In this document: positions 1 through 6,366 of the stretch, one piece after another
Layout: each line of letters opens with the position of its first letter
How positions within the stretch are numbered: position 1 is the stretch's first letter
Virus record (IMG/VR): IMGVR_UViG_3300003691_000028
Location: 1-38,409 of that record
DNA: 38,409 nucleotides
Origin: a virus
Direction: 5' to 3' (one strand)
Notes under the pieces: generated by a model
Database searches by the model: none
What the model was told of the DNA's origin: nothing
Seen by the model: the letters and a program-made list of their open reading frames with translations, nothing else
Translations under genes and position numbers: made by a program

Positions 1-318
1 GAATCGCTTGGTATAAACCCACATCATGGTCATAAAGCCCATACCATGTTAACCCCATTAATGAATTTATCTAAATCGGAAACAGTGCTATTGGCAAAAC
101 AATTGCCCGGATGCTGGGATGCTTTAGCATACACCCACACCAGCTATGACGGAAAATACCCACCCACGGATAAAAATCATGCAAATGTCCTCAGGGCAGA
201 GGGGTTTGAAAAAGCTGGCCTCCCAGACCCTTTAGTTTTAAGAGCTATGATGGAAGGGCTTATGTCTATTCCCATGACCCCCAATTATGATAGGTTTAGG
301 GTATCTATGGAGGTTTAA
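1..318 (+). CDS. queC: QueC-like 7-cyano-7-deazaguanine synthase, C-terminal part (5' end outside window)
   Basis: The frame is open from base 1, so this is the last ~105 residues of a longer protein. The stretch '[20 protein letters not shown]' matches the 'PLM-L-KaEt--LA' segment of QueC, and the tail '[14 protein letters not shown]' matches the QueC C-terminus. QueC converts 7-carboxy-7-deazaguanine to preQ0 with ATP and ammonia. In true QueC the segment between these blocks holds four zinc cysteines (TCY...CGxCxxC.LR). Here the aligned segment reads [19 protein letters not shown], so all four are replaced by S, T, N and N. Either the enzyme works without zinc or it is a relative such as the Gat-QueC amidotransferases of archaeosine synthesis; the missing N-terminus would decide. 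It is the first visible gene of a 7-deazaguanine DNA modification cluster. The family is secure, the exact activity is not. Confidence 0.85.
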
Positions 319-319
319 T

Positions 320-718
320 ATGGACGTTTTTACTCATGGGGTTGCAGGAGCAGTCACCGGATCTGCTTTCGGGAGACCTGTGTTAGGTGCTTTTATTGCA
401 ATCTCTCCTGATATTGTTTTGATTGGGAAACGAAAACAATACCCAACTCGATCTTATTTATTTTTGCACAGTTTCTTTTTTATTATTTCAAGTTGGTTTA
501 TTGTAAATATTTATGATAAAGATTTAGGCTTGTTATTTTTTTATTGCCTACTATCCCATTTAATTCTGGACTTGTTAACACATGGAAAAACTTGGGCTCC
601 TTGCGTATATTGGCCAATGAAATTAAGGCCAATATACTGGCGGGAGTGGGAATTTTTTAACCTTCCTTGGTTTTATGGCCTTGGTTTAACCTCAATATGG
701 TGTGGATTATGGTTGTAA
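320..718 (+). CDS. Small membrane protein of the DUF457/YdjM-like metal-dependent hydrolase family
   Basis: 132 residues starting at the ATG behind GGAGGT, two bases after the QueC-like stop. The pattern fits the membrane-bound hydrolase-like family (DUF457, E. coli YdjM/YbcI). It has H6 in 'FTHG', D31 in 'SPD', H50, and H80-D84-H88 in 'LSHLILDLLTHG', all possible metal ligands set among hydrophobic segments at about 10-30, 48-64, 68-86 and 115-132. It therefore probably sits in the host inner membrane. No substrate is known for the family. Its place between queC and queF-like genes is unexpected for a membrane protein, and its stop overlaps the next gene. A role in the modification pathway is only inferred from position. 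Confidence 0.6.
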   Translation: MDVFTHGVAGAVTGSAFGRPVLGAFIAISPDIVLIGKRKQYPTRSYLFLHSFFFIISSWFIVNIYDKDLGLLFFYCLLSHLILDLLTHGKTWAPCVYWPMKLRPIYWREWEFFNLPWFYGLGLTSIWCGLWL

Positions 719-984
719 CAATTAGACACTGGGTGCCTATAATCACATTCTGCCCCCATAATAACCTCCCTGATTTTATTTACATATCACTCATATATAA
801 AGACAAATTCCGGGAGCTTTATAGCATCAGAAAACGAATTCGTTCCTTAATTTCAGGAAGAAAACTTTTCATGGAGGATATTGCCAAAGAGGTAAGTAGT
901 GAATTCACAGGTGCTGATTCTGTTGAAGTTCGTTTATTATTTAATAGACATATTGTTAAAATACAAAGGGGGAATGATGTATAA
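709..984 (+). CDS. queF-L: QueF-like (QueF-L type) preQ0-modifying enzyme, single short T-fold domain
   Basis: 91 residues from the ATG that overlaps the upstream stop. Upstream in-frame starts at 667 and 697 exist but lie inside the previous gene. The sequence aligns with the unimodular QueF core. 'TFCPHNNLPDF' corresponds to the QueF 'CPvTGqPDf' box, with C15 (thioimide nucleophile) and D22 seven residues apart as in Bacillus QueF. 'FMED' with E56 corresponds to 'FHE', and 'FNRHIVKI' to the final beta strand. The NADPH motif E-(S/L)-K-(S/A)-h-K reads ELYSIR, so both lysines are lost. In crenarchaeal QueF-L, which lacks this motif, the enzyme adds ammonia to the preQ0 nitrile to give archaeosine rather than reducing it. 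I infer the same amidine-forming role here. The QueD start lies inside its last codons. Confidence 0.75.
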   Translation: MVVTIRHWVPIITFCPHNNLPDFIYISLIYKDKFRELYSIRKRIRSLISGRKLFMEDIAKEVSSEFTGADSVEVRLLFNRHIVKIQRGNDV

Positions 985-1426
985 AGTCCATAGATATCAC
1001 GATATTTGTGCGGGTCATAGAGTGGTTGGTCATGAAGGTAAGTGCCGACACCTCCACGGGCACAACTACAGAGTTCATTTCACATGCCAAGCGGATCAAT
1101 TGGATAACGTTGGTCGTGTTATTGATTTTAGTGTGGTTAAAGAAAAGCTGTGTATGTGGCTTGAGGATAATTGGGACCATAAGTTTCTTCACTGGGAAAA
1201 AGACCCTGTTATTAACGCTATAAAACGAGATTTTTCACATAGCTTATTTTATAGCACAATTGAAGATTCGTTAATAAAGCTACCTTTCAATCCAACAGCG
1301 GAAAATATGGCTGAATATCTAGTTGAGACGATTGGCCCTAGTCAATTGAAAGGTACTGGTGTAAAATTAACTGAAGTTAGAATTGAAGAAACTGCCAAAT
1401 GCAGTGCTTCTTATTCCGGAGTATGA
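977..1426 (+). CDS. queD: QueD, 6-carboxy-5,6,7,8-tetrahydropterin synthase
   Basis: 149 residues. The ATG at 977 is favoured over the adjacent ATG at 974 because the GGGGGA Shine-Dalgarno has better spacing. Family marks are clear: H14 ('AGH') plus H27 and H29 ('HLHGHNY') bind zinc, C23 is the catalytic cysteine, 'WDHKFLHW' holds the Asp/His pair, 'PTAENMAEYL' is the helix motif, and 'VRIEETAKCSASY' carries the pterin-anchoring Glu. The protein is somewhat longer than E. coli QueD (about 120 residues) because of an insertion around 75-95 after the DH motif. It converts dihydroneopterin triphosphate, made by FolE next door, to 6-carboxytetrahydropterin, the second step towards preQ0. It overlaps queF-L by 8 bases, so the two are probably translationally coupled. 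Confidence 0.93.
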   Translation: MYKVHRYHDICAGHRVVGHEGKCRHLHGHNYRVHFTCQADQLDNVGRVIDFSVVKEKLCMWLEDNWDHKFLHWEKDPVINAIKRDFSHSLFYSTIEDSLIKLPFNPTAENMAEYLVETIGPSQLKGTGVKLTEVRIEETAKCSASYSGV

Positions 1427-1427
1427 A

Positions 1428-2324
1428 ATGAAAGTTATTTTAAATCACAACAACATTGAACTCTTATGTACAAGAATGAATATTCAGCTCAAGAATATAG
1501 CAAAAGTCGGGAAATTTTATAAATGTTTCCCGATTCCAAGAGGGGGGGTTCCAGCAGCTTATGCCCTATCAGGATATTACAATATTGAAATGGTAGATAG
1601 CCCGCTCGATGCTGATTTCTTTTTTGATGATATTATTGACAGTGGAGCTACGATGGAAAAGTGGTGTGATGCTTATCCTGGAAAACCCTTTTTAGCATTG
1701 ATTGATAAAACAGACCCAGAATGTTATTATTTCAATAAGTGGGTTGTGTTCCCTTGGGAGGGTACAGCAGAGTCAGGCATTGAAGAAAACATTACAAGGA
1801 TTCTCCAATGGATTGGAGAGGATGTTGATCGTGGTGGGTTGAGAGAAACACCAGCTAGGGTATCAAAAGCCCTTGGTGAATGGTTCAGCGGATACGGAAA
1901 AGACCCCAAAGAAGTATTGAAAGTATTCACAGATGGGGCGGAAGGCTATGATCAAATGATTGTGGTTAAGGACATCCCTATTTATAGCAAGTGCGAGCAC
2001 CATATGGCGGATATTTTTGGAACTGCTACAATTGCCTATATCCCGGATGGAAAAATTGTAGGGTTGTCTAAACTGTCACGTCTCGTTGATATGTTTGCCC
2101 GTAGATTACAAGTTCAGGAACGGCTCACGCAACAAATAGCAACAGCATTAAACGATAATCTCAATCCTTTAGGGGTTGGTGTGATAATCAACGCTCGCCA
2201 TATGTGCATGGAGAGTAGGGGGATTTGTCAACAAGGGCATTCAACAATGACTACAGCTTTAAAAGGGGTATTCTTAACGGACACCGATGCACGAGCAGAA
2301 TTTATATCTTTGGCTGGTCGTTGA
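1428..2324 (+). CDS. folE: Phosphoribosyltransferase-GTP cyclohydrolase I (FolE) fusion
   Basis: 298 residues from the ATG behind CCGGAG, one base after the queD stop. Residues 1-110 form a small phosphoribosyltransferase-like domain: 'PIPRGGVPAAYAL' (35-47) and the PRPP loop 'FFDDIIDSGAT' (65-75). Residues ~115-298 are a complete GTP cyclohydrolase I, with 'CEHH' (C189, H192) and C260 in 'MCMESRG' as zinc ligands, the 'QVQERLTQQIA' helix and 'CQQGHSTMTT'. FolE turns GTP into dihydroneopterin triphosphate, the entry step of 7-deazaguanine synthesis. What the N-terminal domain does is open. It could channel or salvage a base or nucleotide, or regulate the enzyme. Its sequence is short for a full phosphoribosyltransferase but the PRPP motif is intact. 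Confidence 0.92.
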   Translation: MKVILNHNNIELLCTRMNIQLKNIAKVGKFYKCFPIPRGGVPAAYALSGYYNIEMVDSPLDADFFFDDIIDSGATMEKWCDAYPGKPFLALIDKTDPECYYFNKWVVFPWEGTAESGIEENITRILQWIGEDVDRGGLRETPARVSKALGEWFSGYGKDPKEVLKVFTDGAEGYDQMIVVKDIPIYSKCEHHMADIFGTATIAYIPDGKIVGLSKLSRLVDMFARRLQVQERLTQQIATALNDNLNPLGVGVIINARHMCMESRGICQQGHSTMTTALKGVFLTDTDARAEFISLAGR

Positions 2325-3242
2325 ATGAACATTTACATGGCAGCAGTGCATTCTAACGGGTATAAGCACACCAATCGCTATGCTAAGTTAAATGAAGTTG
2401 AAAAGGCTGCTGTCCATAATTTACCACATTTATTAGAGTCCTATCACTACATTCATAAACCCGCTTTTGTACAGGCAATACGACAAAATGAAGACAAGAT
2501 TTTTTTAGATTCCGGAGCGTTTTCAGCTTATACATTAGGCGTAGACTTAAACCTAGAGGATTATTGTACTTATATTAAAACAAATGAAGACATAATCCTC
2601 AAAGAAGATGGCATATTGATGGCGTCGGTTCTTGACGGTATTGGAGACCCATTAATAACATATCAAAATCAACTTGCAATGGAAGGGTATGGTGTGAAAC
2701 CTTTACCGTGTTTTCATGCAGGAGAGGACGAAAAATATCTAGAATGGTATGTGCAAAATTATGAATATATTACTTTGGGCGGTATGGTTGGGTCGAGCAG
2801 TAAACAATTGATAATTTGGCTTGACAGAATGTGGGATAAGTATCTAACTGATGGTAGCGGAAATCCAAGACTCAAAGTTCATGGTTTTGGTATTACAGCC
2901 ATTCCAATCATGGAGCGGTATCCGTGGTGGAGTTGTGACTCATCATCGTGGATTCAAAGTGCTGCATTTGGATCAGTAATTACCCCTCAATATGGCCCAC
3001 TTTCAGTTTCTGATAAATCACCTTCACGCCATGTAGCAGGGCAGCATGTTGAAACCTTTACTGAGATAGAAAATAAAAAAATACATGAACTTTTTCATTC
3101 CCAAGGATACGATTATACAAGGCTCTCCACTGTTTACGAGTCACGTGCTGTGTATAATCTATGGGCTTTTGGGGAGATTAATAAGCAGATGGATCTTTGT
3201 AATGTTCAGGATTTTCAGTCTGCACAACCGGAGTTGTTTTAA
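2325..3242 (+). CDS. dpdA: DpdA, DNA-guanine transglycosylase (TGT family)
   Basis: 305 residues starting directly after the folE stop. It belongs to the TGT superfamily in its phage DpdA form. 'FLDSGAFSAYT' (60-70, D62) matches the substrate-binding Asp box of TGT (TDSGGFQ). 'LDGIGD' and 'CFHAGE' follow, 'YITLGGMVG' corresponds to the TGT Gly-rich base-recognition loop, and D205 in 'WWSCDSSSW' sits where the TGT nucleophilic Asp lies. The C-terminal CxCxxC zinc site of tRNA enzymes is absent and the protein is short (TGT ~375). DpdA swaps guanine in DNA for a 7-deazaguanine base such as preQ0, giving restriction-resistant phage DNA. Neighbouring genes supply the base. The stop overlaps the clamp start (TAATG). 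Confidence 0.9.
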   Translation: MNIYMAAVHSNGYKHTNRYAKLNEVEKAAVHNLPHLLESYHYIHKPAFVQAIRQNEDKIFLDSGAFSAYTLGVDLNLEDYCTYIKTNEDIILKEDGILMASVLDGIGDPLITYQNQLAMEGYGVKPLPCFHAGEDEKYLEWYVQNYEYITLGGMVGSSSKQLIIWLDRMWDKYLTDGSGNPRLKVHGFGITAIPIMERYPWWSCDSSSWIQSAAFGSVITPQYGPLSVSDKSPSRHVAGQHVETFTEIENKKIHELFHSQGYDYTRLSTVYESRAVYNLWAFGEINKQMDLCNVQDFQSAQPELF

Positions 3243-4195
3243 TGTTGGATGAATTAAAATTTGTTCAAGGTGCCGTGTCCAAGAAAAACTTTCTACCTGC
3301 TTTGACCCATTTTAGAATTGAGGCTGGTAATATTCGGAGTTTCAACGGAACACTTGCACTTAGTTCGCCAATCAAATTAGACATTGATTGCACCCCAAAA
3401 GCTGACCCATTTATAAAAGCTATTCAAAAATGTACCGAAACTGTATCCATGAGCTTAACAAAAGCCGGGCGGTTGCGTATTCAATCTGGGACGTTTAAAG
3501 TTTTCATCAACTGCACAGAGGAAGAAACCCACCACGTTGAACCAGAAGGCGAGTTACATGATATTGACGGTGAAGTATTTTTAAAAGCAATCAAGACAAT
3601 TGCCCCCTTCATTGGAATCGACGCTTCCCGACCTTGGTCCAATGGTATATTATTAAAAGGTCAAAGCGCATACGCAACTAATAATGTATCGCTGGTTGAA
3701 TATTGGGTTGGAAATAGTTTTCCTGTCATCTGTAACATTCCAAAATCTGCAATAGTTGAAATAATACGAATTAACAAACCGCCAACAAAAGTCCAAATTT
3801 CAAACAAAAGCATATCTTTCCTATATGAGGATGATAAATGGATAAGGACATCACTTTTGGATATTTGTTGGCCGGATTTAGATAAGATTTTAAACACACC
3901 CTCCAACCCAGTGCCAATAGATGAACGCATTTTCGAAGGGCTGGAGAGTATAAAACCTTTCGTGGATAAATTAGGCAGAGTTTATATTCAAAATGAAACT
4001 ATTTGTACTAGCATTATTGAAGGTGAAGGTGCGACTTACGAAATACCCGATTTTAAAAGCGAAGGTGCATATCAATTAGGTATCCTGAACCTCCTCAAAA
4101 ATACTGCCACAAAAATTGATTTTTCAACCTATCCAAAACCCTGTTTATTTTTCGGTGAACGATTGAGGGGCGCAATTATAGGTATGCGTACATGA
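3242..4195 (+). CDS. DNA polymerase sliding clamp, beta-clamp-like
   Basis: 317 residues. The N-terminus 'LKFVQGAVSKKNFLPALTHFRIEAGNIRSFNGTLAL' (written in pieces: LKFVQGAVSKKNF, LPALTHFRIE, IRSFNGTLAL) has the DnaN pattern of 'v..av..knt.PiL....i...g.i...DgtlaI'. Beta-rich repeats follow, and the C-terminus 'CLFFGERLRGAIIGMRT' resembles the end of DnaN, where the last strand reports on the third domain. It is shorter than bacterial DnaN (about 366). The role is to tether the polymerase encoded by the next gene, whose ATG overlaps the stop (ATGA), fitting a co-expressed replisome pair. No catalytic motifs are expected in this family, so the call rests on overall pattern and context. Confidence 0.7.
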   Translation: MLDELKFVQGAVSKKNFLPALTHFRIEAGNIRSFNGTLALSSPIKLDIDCTPKADPFIKAIQKCTETVSMSLTKAGRLRIQSGTFKVFINCTEEETHHVEPEGELHDIDGEVFLKAIKTIAPFIGIDASRPWSNGILLKGQSAYATNNVSLVEYWVGNSFPVICNIPKSAIVEIIRINKPPTKVQISNKSISFLYEDDKWIRTSLLDICWPDLDKILNTPSNPVPIDERIFEGLESIKPFVDKLGRVYIQNETICTSIIEGEGATYEIPDFKSEGAYQLGILNLLKNTATKIDFSTYPKPCLFFGERLRGAIIGMRT

Positions 4196-6366
4196 GGTCG
4201 GACGCTGTTGGGATGTTTTGGGAGGAAGTTGATTATAAAACAGATAAAAAACAGACATTGTTAATTGAAGAAGGTTGGACTGAAGTAATCTCAGGTTTCT
4301 GGGCCGAACAATATTTATTGGATAATGGTGCAGATGTCCGTGAAGTATCCAGCACATTGGATAATGCCTATTTAACTGCCCGTGCAAGCAAGACAGGTGC
4401 AAAAAGAACCCCACCTGAACCTGTATGGCTACATCCGGATTATCTTCCGGGCTTGGACGAAGCTAGAGCCTTTAACGTCCCGTTATTTTCAGAAGAAGAA
4501 CTCCTCCAAGCAGCAGTTGAGGTTTTTACAAAAGGGGTTCGCCACAAACTTATTTTCGACATTGAGTGTTATGGTAATTATTTCCTAATTGCCTTTATTT
4601 CACTAGACCTCGGCAAAGTTGTTTATTTGGAACTCAGTGATGATTCTGAGTTAGATTGTGGGAAACTAAAATGGATATTTGAGAATTTTTGTGTCATAGG
4701 TTTTAACTCAAATAACTACGATATCTGGATAGCTTCAATGGCTGTCCATGGGTGCTCCACAGCAGCTATGAAATCTGTCACAGCTGGTATTATTGAATAT
4801 GGAGAAAAGGGGTGGCATTTATTAAGAAGGCACAAGGTAAAGAAATTAAAAACTGACCACATTGATTTGATAGAAGTGGCTCCGTTATTTGCTTCCCTCA
4901 AAATTTATGGTGGGCGTATGCACACCAAGCAAATGCAGGACCTACCTTTCCCGCCCGGAACTGTTTTATCAGAACCCCAGAGAGCAATTATAAAATGGTA
5001 CTGTGTAAAAGATCTGAGGGTTACATTAGAGCTATACCGGAAAGTAATTAAAGAAATTGTATTGCGGGAAGAGATGGGTCATCAATACGGGGTTGATTTA
5101 CGTTCAAAATCAGATGCTCAAATTGCAGAGGTTGTCATCGGGCAAGAGGTTGAAAAACTAAACGGATACAGACCTTTCAAGCCAGAAATAGAACCTGGCA
5201 CATGCTATTATTATCAAGTACCTGAGTTCATTAATTTCCAAACCCCTCTAATGAACAATCTTGTCAACATAATCAAGAAGACGCCATTTGTGGTGTCTGA
5301 GTTTGGAAATGTTGGCTTGCCACAAGAGCTTAAATCCCAAGTTATTAGAATAAACCAAACTGACTACAAATTGGGGATTGGAGGGCTGCATAGCGTCGAT
5401 AAAAATATGTCTCATTATGCAGATAAGAACACTATTTTAAAAGACGTAGATGCGACTTCCTACTATCCTTTTATAATTCTACTCTTAGGACTATACCCTA
5501 AACACCTTGGCCCTAATTTCCTTACTGTTTTTCGTACCCTAGTTGAAAGACGTGTCAGGGCAAAGGTGGCAAAAAATAAAACAGCAGCAGATACAATTAA
5601 AATTGTGGTCAACGGATCGTTTGGTAAATTGGGCAGCGTGTTTTCTATTTTATATGCACCTGATTTGTTAATCCAAGTGACAATTACGGGCCAACTTTCT
5701 TTACTGCTTCTTATTGAATCGTTGGAACTTGCTAATATACCTGTCGTCAGTGCCAATACAGATGGAATTGTTATCAAATGTCCCAAACATCTTGAATCAA
5801 CTATGGATGTAATTATTAAGCAATGGGAGATCAATACAGGGTTTTCAACAGAGGAAAGTTTATATGCAGCATTGTTCAGCAGGGATGTTAATAACTACCT
5901 CGCTATAAAAGATCCTAGTTGCTGGAAGGAGGGGGATACCACGGATGATAAGGTGAAAACAAAGGGTATTTTTGCAAAGCCCGGACTATCCAAAAACCCA
6001 CAAAATGAAATCTGTATTGTTGCCATCAAGGAACTTTTAATTAATGGTATTGCAATAGAAGAGACAATTCGAAATTGTAAAGACATTACAAAATTTGTCA
6101 ATGTACGAACAGTAAAAGGTGGGGCGGTTAAATTGCATAATAATGAAGGGACGAACGGGCTCTTTCTAGGTAAGGCAATTAGATGGTATTATGCTAAAAA
6201 CATCGCTGGTGAAATTGTTTATGCTACAACAGGTAATAAGGTTCCCAAAACTGAAGGGGCCCAACCTCTCATGGATCTTCCAGGCACATTCCCACAAGAC
6301 GTTGATTATAATTGGTATGAAAAAGAAAGCTTCAAAATATTAAAACAAATCAGTTATTCTAATTAA
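4192..6366 (+). CDS. Family B-type DNA polymerase with 3'-5' exonuclease
   Basis: 724 residues. The exonuclease domain shows Exo I 'IFDIECYGNYF' (D123, E125), Exo II 'GFNSNNYDIWI' (D177) and Exo III 'YCVKDLRVTLELY' (Y270, D274), a DEDDy set for proofreading. The polymerase domain shows motif A 'DVDATSYYPF' (D418), motif B 'KIVVNGSFGKLGS' (~470-482) and motif C 'SANTDGIVIK' (D524). In motif C the usual DTDS is NTDG: the first Asp is Asn and the second, catalytic, Asp is kept. Residues 1-110 have no recognisable motif. The protein is compact for family B, with short palm and thumb segments. It replicates the phage genome, probably with the clamp encoded just upstream. The ATG at 4192 overlaps the clamp stop; a second ATG at 4213 is possible. 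Confidence 0.9.
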   Translation: MRSDAVGMFWEEVDYKTDKKQTLLIEEGWTEVISGFWAEQYLLDNGADVREVSSTLDNAYLTARASKTGAKRTPPEPVWLHPDYLPGLDEARAFNVPLFSEEELLQAAVEVFTKGVRHKLIFDIECYGNYFLIAFISLDLGKVVYLELSDDSELDCGKLKWIFENFCVIGFNSNNYDIWIASMAVHGCSTAAMKSVTAGIIEYGEKGWHLLRRHKVKKLKTDHIDLIEVAPLFASLKIYGGRMHTKQMQDLPFPPGTVLSEPQRAIIKWYCVKDLRVTLELYRKVIKEIVLREEMGHQYGVDLRSKSDAQIAEVVIGQEVEKLNGYRPFKPEIEPGTCYYYQVPEFINFQTPLMNNLVNIIKKTPFVVSEFGNVGLPQELKSQVIRINQTDYKLGIGGLHSVDKNMSHYADKNTILKDVDATSYYPFIILLLGLYPKHLGPNFLTVFRTLVERRVRAKVAKNKTAADTIKIVVNGSFGKLGSVFSILYAPDLLIQVTITGQLSLLLLIESLELANIPVVSANTDGIVIKCPKHLESTMDVIIKQWEINTGFSTEESLYAALFSRDVNNYLAIKDPSCWKEGDTTDDKVKTKGIFAKPGLSKNPQNEICIVAIKELLINGIAIEETIRNCKDITKFVNVRTVKGGAVKLHNNEGTNGLFLGKAIRWYYAKNIAGEIVYATTGNKVPKTEGAQPLMDLPGTFPQDVDYNWYEKESFKILKQISYSN

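Follow-up and report, generated by a model that had tools for sequence, protein, structure and literature searches.

Whether phage homologues of QueF act as nitrile reductases or as amidinotransferases was left open in 2019 with the remark that 'Further experimental studies are required' (PMC6884629), because sequence likeness alone could not decide. The same question is raised by a short gene in the preQ0 gene cluster of the virus record analysed here, the whole 38,409-base stretch of which is referred to as the window. We propose that the product of this gene is probably a QueF-L-type archaeosine synthase of phage, that is, an amidinotransferase that would convert preQ0 within DNA into dG+ (2'-deoxyarchaeosine). 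The basic reading is not new, since a homologue from Sphingomonas phage vB_StuS_MMDA13 has already been published as a putative QueF-like archaeosine synthase. What is new here is an eight-member family, the contrast between its motif and that of phages carrying dPreQ1, its repeated exchange with another enzyme and a constant partner gene.

A short gene within a preQ0 cluster

The window comes from IMG/VR, and its cluster runs in the order queC, YdjM-like gene, QueF-L gene, queD, phosphoribosyltransferase-folE, dpdA, sliding clamp and DNA polymerase (Table 1); tail, portal, terminase and endolysin genes lie on the opposite strand. No QueE was seen in the window, the contig of which is cut at its start.

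Table 1. Cluster genes of the window and residues of the QueF-like protein
Feature	Position	Strand	Basis or remark
QueC, C-terminal part	1-318	+	Pfam QueC E 3.5e-5, PHROG 6.4e-10; cut by contig start
YdjM-like membrane protein	320-718	+	Pfam YdjM E 1.2e-5, below cut-off; ORF from 287, start 320 by homologues
QueF-like T-fold protein, proposed phage archaeosine synthase	709-984	+	MMDA13 gp33 homology, AF2 T-fold, eight-member family
Cys15	751-753	+	aligned with thioimide cysteine (B. subtilis QueF C55, P. calidifontis QueF-L C21)
Asp22	772-774	+	aligned with general acid/base aspartate (QueF D62, QueF-L D28)
ELYSIR, residues 36-41	814-831	+	position of QueF NADPH motif; Glu kept, Lys to Tyr, Lys to Arg
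Glu36	814-816	+	aligned with QueF motif glutamate E78
Tyr38	820-822	+	in place of first motif Lys
Arg41	829-831	+	in place of second motif Lys
Glu56	874-876	+	aligned with substrate-anchoring glutamate, QueF E97
QueD	974-1426	+	PHROG E 4.8e-54
Phosphoribosyltransferase-like domain fused to FolE (GTP cyclohydrolase I)	1428-2324	+	profile matches
DpdA-type DNA guanine transglycosylase	2325-3242	+	PHROG queuine tRNA-ribosyltransferase E 6.7e-83; NCBIfam DpdA E 0.023 only
DNA sliding clamp	3242-4195	+	PHROG E 9.3e-74
DNA polymerase	4192-6366	+	PHROG E 1.4e-201

The initial annotation had described a 91-residue protein in overlapping frames, and this is what we find: the open reading frame translates into 91 amino acids and overlaps the upstream frame (stop at 716-718) by 10 bases and the start of queD (974 or 977) by 8-11 bases. 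The frame is a genuine gene. A tblastn search of 50,697 phage records matched one phage, MMDA13 (two records), the gp33 of which (QHB80466.1) is the closest homologue (48.9% identity, E 2e-19, 91% of the query), is annotated as 'putative archeosine synthase QueF-like protein' and lies in the same gene order, with a plain QueC and a YdjM-like gene upstream; unlike the window protein, it has a 7-residue insertion ahead of the motif discussed below. In ten pairs drawn from five family members pN/pS is 0.12-0.40, with the more distant pairs saturated at synonymous sites, i.e. these five members are under purifying selection. Among the 149 open frames of at least 60 residues in the window, three contain C-x6-D-x33/34-E by itself and only this one contains CP-x4-PD-x33/34-E. 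PADLOC returned nothing for the gene. Two Prevotella matches from a genome scan (40-44% over about 40 residues, in frames of 418-426 residues) were dropped as chance because the Cys and Asp lie outside the matched stretch.

The MMDA13 paper of 2020 assigns Gp33 as a putative archaeosine synthase resembling QueF, proposes that archaeosine is present in the DNA and that Gp33 supplies a separate amidotransferase function replacing the GAT domain, and places the YdjM-like companion product Gp34 among hypothetical proteins (PMC7472734). The available portions of that paper report no activity or base analysis and make no mention of mass spectrometry, digests, EcoRI or NADPH. In the open-licence literature, mostly titles and abstracts, we found no treatment of the loss of the NADPH motif in the phage family or of its pairing with YdjM, and nothing relevant on later phage deazaguanine enzymes under the names DpdL and DpdM.

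Two neighbouring proteins have features of their own. Usual QueC carries four zinc-binding cysteines at its C-terminal region, which reads THTSYDG... in the window, in MMDA13 gp35 (L001:6812-7597) and in a third locus (L010:1991-2746); these cysteines seem, from the sequences, to be lost in the three proteins and kept in the QueC of L002. The fusion of a phosphoribosyltransferase-like domain in front of FolE was covered to at least 80% in 33 of 373 matching phage records.

Fold prediction and profile comparisons

AlphaFold2 models built from four window and locus sequences (pLDDT 81.8, pTM 0.73) and from seven sequences (pLDDT 83.1, pTM 0.72) were compared with solved structures. The first model has the order strand-strand-helix-helix-strand-strand, and the single T-fold domain (bb-aa-bb) of about 100 residues that characterizes QueF-L is present in the prediction. 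In both runs archaeal QueF-L from Pyrobaculum calidifontis was the first match, with Foldseek as 5jyx_C (E 4.4e-4 and 5.2e-5) and with VIA as 5k0p_B (Z 12.6 over 89 aligned residues at rmsd 2.8, and Z 12.1 over 88 at 2.4). QueF (4f8b) reached Z 10.0 (90 aligned, rmsd 2.5) and 9.8 (88, 2.3), and GTP cyclohydrolase I, QueD/PTPS and DHNA folds about 9-11, GTP cyclohydrolase I lying 1.3 Z under QueF-L in both VIA runs; no bimodular QueF was among the 50 matches listed by either program. Given these Z scores, the T-fold assignment of the predicted model is firm and its preference for QueF-L over other T-folds modest. The comparison with Pyrobaculum QueF-L had been set beforehand as a check, and the predicted T-fold, with QueF-L as its top solved match, bears the expectation out.

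Sequence profiles tie the window protein to QueF weakly. Pfam QueF (PF14489) did not match the window protein, and NCBIfam QueF-II (TIGR03139) matched one of the eight family members, in register but at E 0.028 and 14.3 bits against a cut-off of 86.9. Searching PDB by HMMER with the eight-member profile retrieved neither QueF nor QueF-L; the matches obtained with single sequences or the family (formin, DUF507, HOP1, VIN3, TcaR) were weak and unrelated. Once HVTV-1 QueF was added to the family profile, 5jyx appeared at E 0.078, but matches to QueF and QueF-L from profiles including Dp-1 or HVTV-1 QueF were rejected as proof of kinship, because these two proteins themselves carry that signal.

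Profile-profile comparison went somewhat further. With five members, hhalign gave P 0.017 against QueF, a weak result with a probability value of 2.7. With eight members QueF was the best of eight cluster families at P 0.0092, though at a low probability value of 4.4, and the Cys, Pro-Asp, Glu and Glu-Asp were in register; five of 11 phage and viral QueFs ranked above all 2000 shuffled QueFs, HVTV-1 falling outside the top 30. The global mode of hhalign was uninformative. The profile searches, a check proposed in the initial annotation, thus put QueF first among the cluster families in profile-profile comparison, but left family cut-offs unreached and found no QueF in PDB with the family profile. 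Since the profile links are weak, it is fold, residues and context in combination that carry the kinship with QueF.

Conserved residues and the replaced lysines

The family consists of the window protein, MMDA13 gp33 (L001), three proteins from IMG/VR (L002, L011/L020 and L021) and three reached by searching for relatives of its YdjM-like neighbour (L049, L050 and L051). Their alignment has 26 invariant columns, including H7, W8, C15, P16, P21, D22, E36, L37, Y38, R41, R45, M55, E56, R80 and H81. The residue set of QueF, Cys55, Asp62, Glu97 and Glu78, is matched in register by C15, D22, E56 and E36, which are also four of the seven columns that stay invariant when five members are aligned with the QueFs of Dp-1 and HVTV-1. 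Arg80 is aligned with the Arg of the QueF PRGG stretch. The claim that Cys, Asp and Glu keep the spacing of Bacillus QueF stands exactly for Cys to Asp (7) but is off by one for Asp to Glu, which is 34 here and 35 in the QueFs of B. subtilis and Dp-1.

In QueF the motif E(S/L)K(S/A)hK(L/Y)(Y/F/W) comprises the NADPH-binding residues (PMC5372742, whose numbering of Cys55, Asp62, Glu78 and Glu97 is used here). The corresponding stretch of the window protein, ELYSIRKR, departs from this consensus, as do those of all eight members: the family motif is E-L-Y-x-(I/A/V)-R-(K/R)-x, both lysines being replaced in 8/8, and the two positions that follow are also off the QueF consensus in the family alignment. 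The proposal that the catalytic residues are retained and the NADPH lysines lost therefore extends to the whole family. By contrast, E(S/L)K(S/A)xK is intact in all 11 phage and viral QueFs examined, namely those of Dp-1 and HVTV-1 together with nine close IMG/VR relatives of the Dp-1 protein. Unimodular QueF, such as B. subtilis 4F8B or Dp-1 gp1, thus shares with the window protein the T-fold, the Cys, the Asp, the Glu and the motif Glu, but has an intact ESKSLK motif and depends on NADPH, and QueF models miss the window protein at their cut-offs.

Archaeal QueF-L (P. calidifontis; 5JYX, 5K0P; PMC5485725) resembles the window protein in its fold, its Cys, Asp and Glu, the loss of the first motif lysine and its length of about 100 residues, and differs in having a tRNA substrate and an Asp-to-Glu spacing of 35. 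Its motif stretch reads A-I-E-E-F-K as against E-L-Y-x-x-R in the phage family, in a single weak alignment and with the archaeal sequence read in part from a profile search that included HVTV-1 QueF. On this alignment archaeal QueF-L seems to have lost the motif glutamate which the phage family keeps as Glu36, and to have kept the second lysine. The description of the window protein as being in the 'QueF-L state' consequently holds for the first lysine, lost in both, but not for the motif glutamate and the second position. Arg41, in place of a lysine, might still hold a phosphate.

Exchange with GAT-QueC

Among 22 loci surveyed the QueF-L gene is present in five. GAT-QueC occurs in eight of the 22, none of which has the QueF-L gene, and a plain QueC is in full view in 11, four of which have it (L001, L002, L011 and L021); the QueC of the window is cut and was left out of these counts, and L007 and L013 show no QueC. 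The remaining seven plain-QueC loci have neither a GAT domain nor QueF-L, so that the slot can be free of QueF-L. Pfam GAT domains were detected in 2/2 GAT-QueCs tested and in 0/6 plain QueCs tested. In three sister records with GAT-QueC (33, 53 and 65 kb) the QueF-L gene is absent over the whole record. Duplicate loci of one contig were counted once (L003, L006, L019, L020, L048, L052 and L053), and six phage records (H3, H9, H19, H26, H27 and H37) were chosen among the matches listed (40 of 373 records).

For loci found independently, i.e. reachable without a QueF-L or YdjM search, the exclusion amounts to 3/10 plain-QueC loci against 0/8 GAT loci and is not significant (Fisher P 0.147), with some rows related (L031/L032 and L030/L033 are near-identical). 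For all found loci it is 7/14 against 0/8 (P 0.020), but the added ones were reached by searching for the QueF-L gene itself or for the gene beside it. A tree of DpdA and clamp from 21 of the 22 surveyed loci splits the QueF-L rows between two starred clades, each of which also contains GAT-QueC rows, and their distribution needs three changes, at least two of them by starred branches; branches are long, and gain and loss cannot be told apart. The QueF-L gene stands in for GAT-QueC in related phages, a switch made separately at least twice on the tree. The GAT-QueC of Queuovirinae (phage 9g type) shares with it the cluster position and, by inference, the product dG+, but has another chemistry and fold, a glutamine amidotransferase domain being fused to QueC.

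Between queC and queD of one plain-QueC locus lies a stand-alone ArcS-core protein (L010:2763-3479; DUF5591 E 2.6e-8, over cut-off). That unlike types of archaeosine synthase occupy this slot in turn speaks, by analogy, for an equivalent task of QueF-L.

The slot has further occupants of interest in themselves. The L010 protein is a candidate minimal phage ArcS in the position used by QueF-L in relatives, and in another phage, which has its own preQ0 genes, a YhhQ/Vut_1-like queuosine-precursor transporter is encoded between queC and queD (L012:2270-2749).

The YdjM-like companion gene

In all eight members the gene immediately preceding QueF-L is the YdjM-like one, with homologues of the window gene in L001, L002, L011, L021, L049, L050 and L051. 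Two of these match Pfam YdjM at E 3.9e-8 and 6.8e-10, and the protein has invariant His and Asp residues. In the survey it was found in the same five loci as QueF-L and was not detected in those without it; in the phage collection it occurs in MMDA13 only. A scan of IMG/VR with the YdjM alignment, from which QueF-L was left out, retrieved six relatives, three of them already known via QueF-L, and a QueF-L gene follows it in 6/6; the same scan with the window protein alone gave no match.

Archaeal QueF-L uses only free ammonium, and a partner producing ammonium was deemed possible (PMC5485725). We conjecture that the YdjM-like protein is such an ammonia partner. As a tentative model, which we consider possible but doubtful, the two genes may form a module replacing the glutamine amidotransferase domain of GAT-QueC, in which the membrane protein would supply or channel ammonia, or anchor a QueF-L able to use only free ammonium, so that dG+ would be made on DNA at the membrane.

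Proposed function and alternatives

In the proposed pathway the gene, the family, the predicted fold, the conserved residues and the swap within the cluster are observations, whereas formation of a thioimide, attack by ammonia, action on DNA and protection are carried over from the relatives named above. FolE, QueD, QueE and QueC would make preQ0, which DpdA would place into phage DNA. The T-fold protein is probably oligomeric, with active sites between subunits, where Cys15 would attack the preQ0 nitrile to form a thioimide, Asp22 serving as acid/base and Glu56 holding the base. Since the NADPH motif is gone, ammonia rather than hydride would attack the thioimide to give the formamidine of dG+, and the modified DNA would then resist host restriction.

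An archaeosine synthase is suggested by QueF-L as the top match of the predicted fold in two AlphaFold2 runs and two programs, by the invariance of C15, D22, E36 and E56 with both lysines replaced in 8/8, and by the retention of the motif in all 11 QueFs, including those of the dPreQ1 phages. The exchange with GAT-QueC and the ArcS core in the L010 slot point the same way by analogy, with the precedent of phage 9g, whose Gat-QueC together with DpdA leads to dG+ in E. coli plasmids (PMC6884629). Against it stand the weak profile link to QueF, the Asp-to-Glu spacing of 34, the kept Glu36, an Arg41 that might still hold a phosphate, GTP cyclohydrolase I at only 1.3 Z behind, the seven plain-QueC loci with neither GAT nor QueF-L, and the history of Dp-1 and HVTV-1: HHpred had called their proteins QueF-L as well, yet the DNA of both carries dPreQ1 (PMC6884629).

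The amidinotransferase could also act on the free base, converting preQ0 to G+ before insertion by DpdA, a variant of the proposal whose probability overlaps with that of the proposal itself. QueF does work on the free base, and for Gat-QueC the order of base change and insertion was left unsettled (PMC6884629), but P. calidifontis QueF-L acts on preQ0-tRNA, and its thioimide with free preQ0 is unreactive to ammonia sources (PMC5485725), so we would give this order of events a minor chance.

A true QueF function, i.e. a nitrile reductase that yields dPreQ1 and holds NADPH through alternative residues, for example Arg41, Lys42 and Arg80, appears unlikely. Likeness to the QueF superfamily, the kept Glu36, the conservative change from Lys to Arg, the alignment of Arg80 with the PRGG stretch and the precedent of the Dp-1 and HVTV-1 proteins would agree with it; yet the first motif lysine is Tyr and the second Arg in 8/8, the next two positions are also unfit, the motif is retained in 11/11 phage and viral QueFs, and the exchange is with GAT-QueC, whose product is dG+ (PMC6884629). 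We likewise give little credence to attack of the thioimide by water, which would yield the amide base dADG, or to a promiscuous hydratase/amidinotransferase. Some dADG is found in HVTV-1 and nt-1, its enzyme being unassigned there (PMC6884629), but in the available text of the QueF and archaeal QueF-L papers the amide is not reported as a product (PMC5372742, PMC5485725), and both exchange partners, GAT-QueC and the ArcS core, belong to archaeosine-synthase types. The T-fold protein might instead have an unrelated or structural function, for example assisting FolE or QueD as a subunit; the Z scores of 9-11 for FolE, QueD and DHNA folds and the weak sequence link to QueF would fit this, but it is improbable given the C/D/E/E set invariant in 8/8 and QueF as the best of the eight cluster families, in register (P 0.0092).

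Implications

Replacement of the motif lysines in 8/8 members as against their retention in 11/11 QueFs provides a clear criterion that separates the family from the two dPreQ1 phages, and this criterion is linked to the gene exchange with GAT-QueC. If the family does consist of archaeosine synthases, QueF-L chemistry would be extended from tRNA to DNA, and the constant partner gene would be a named candidate for the ammonia-generating partner that the archaeal work allowed for.
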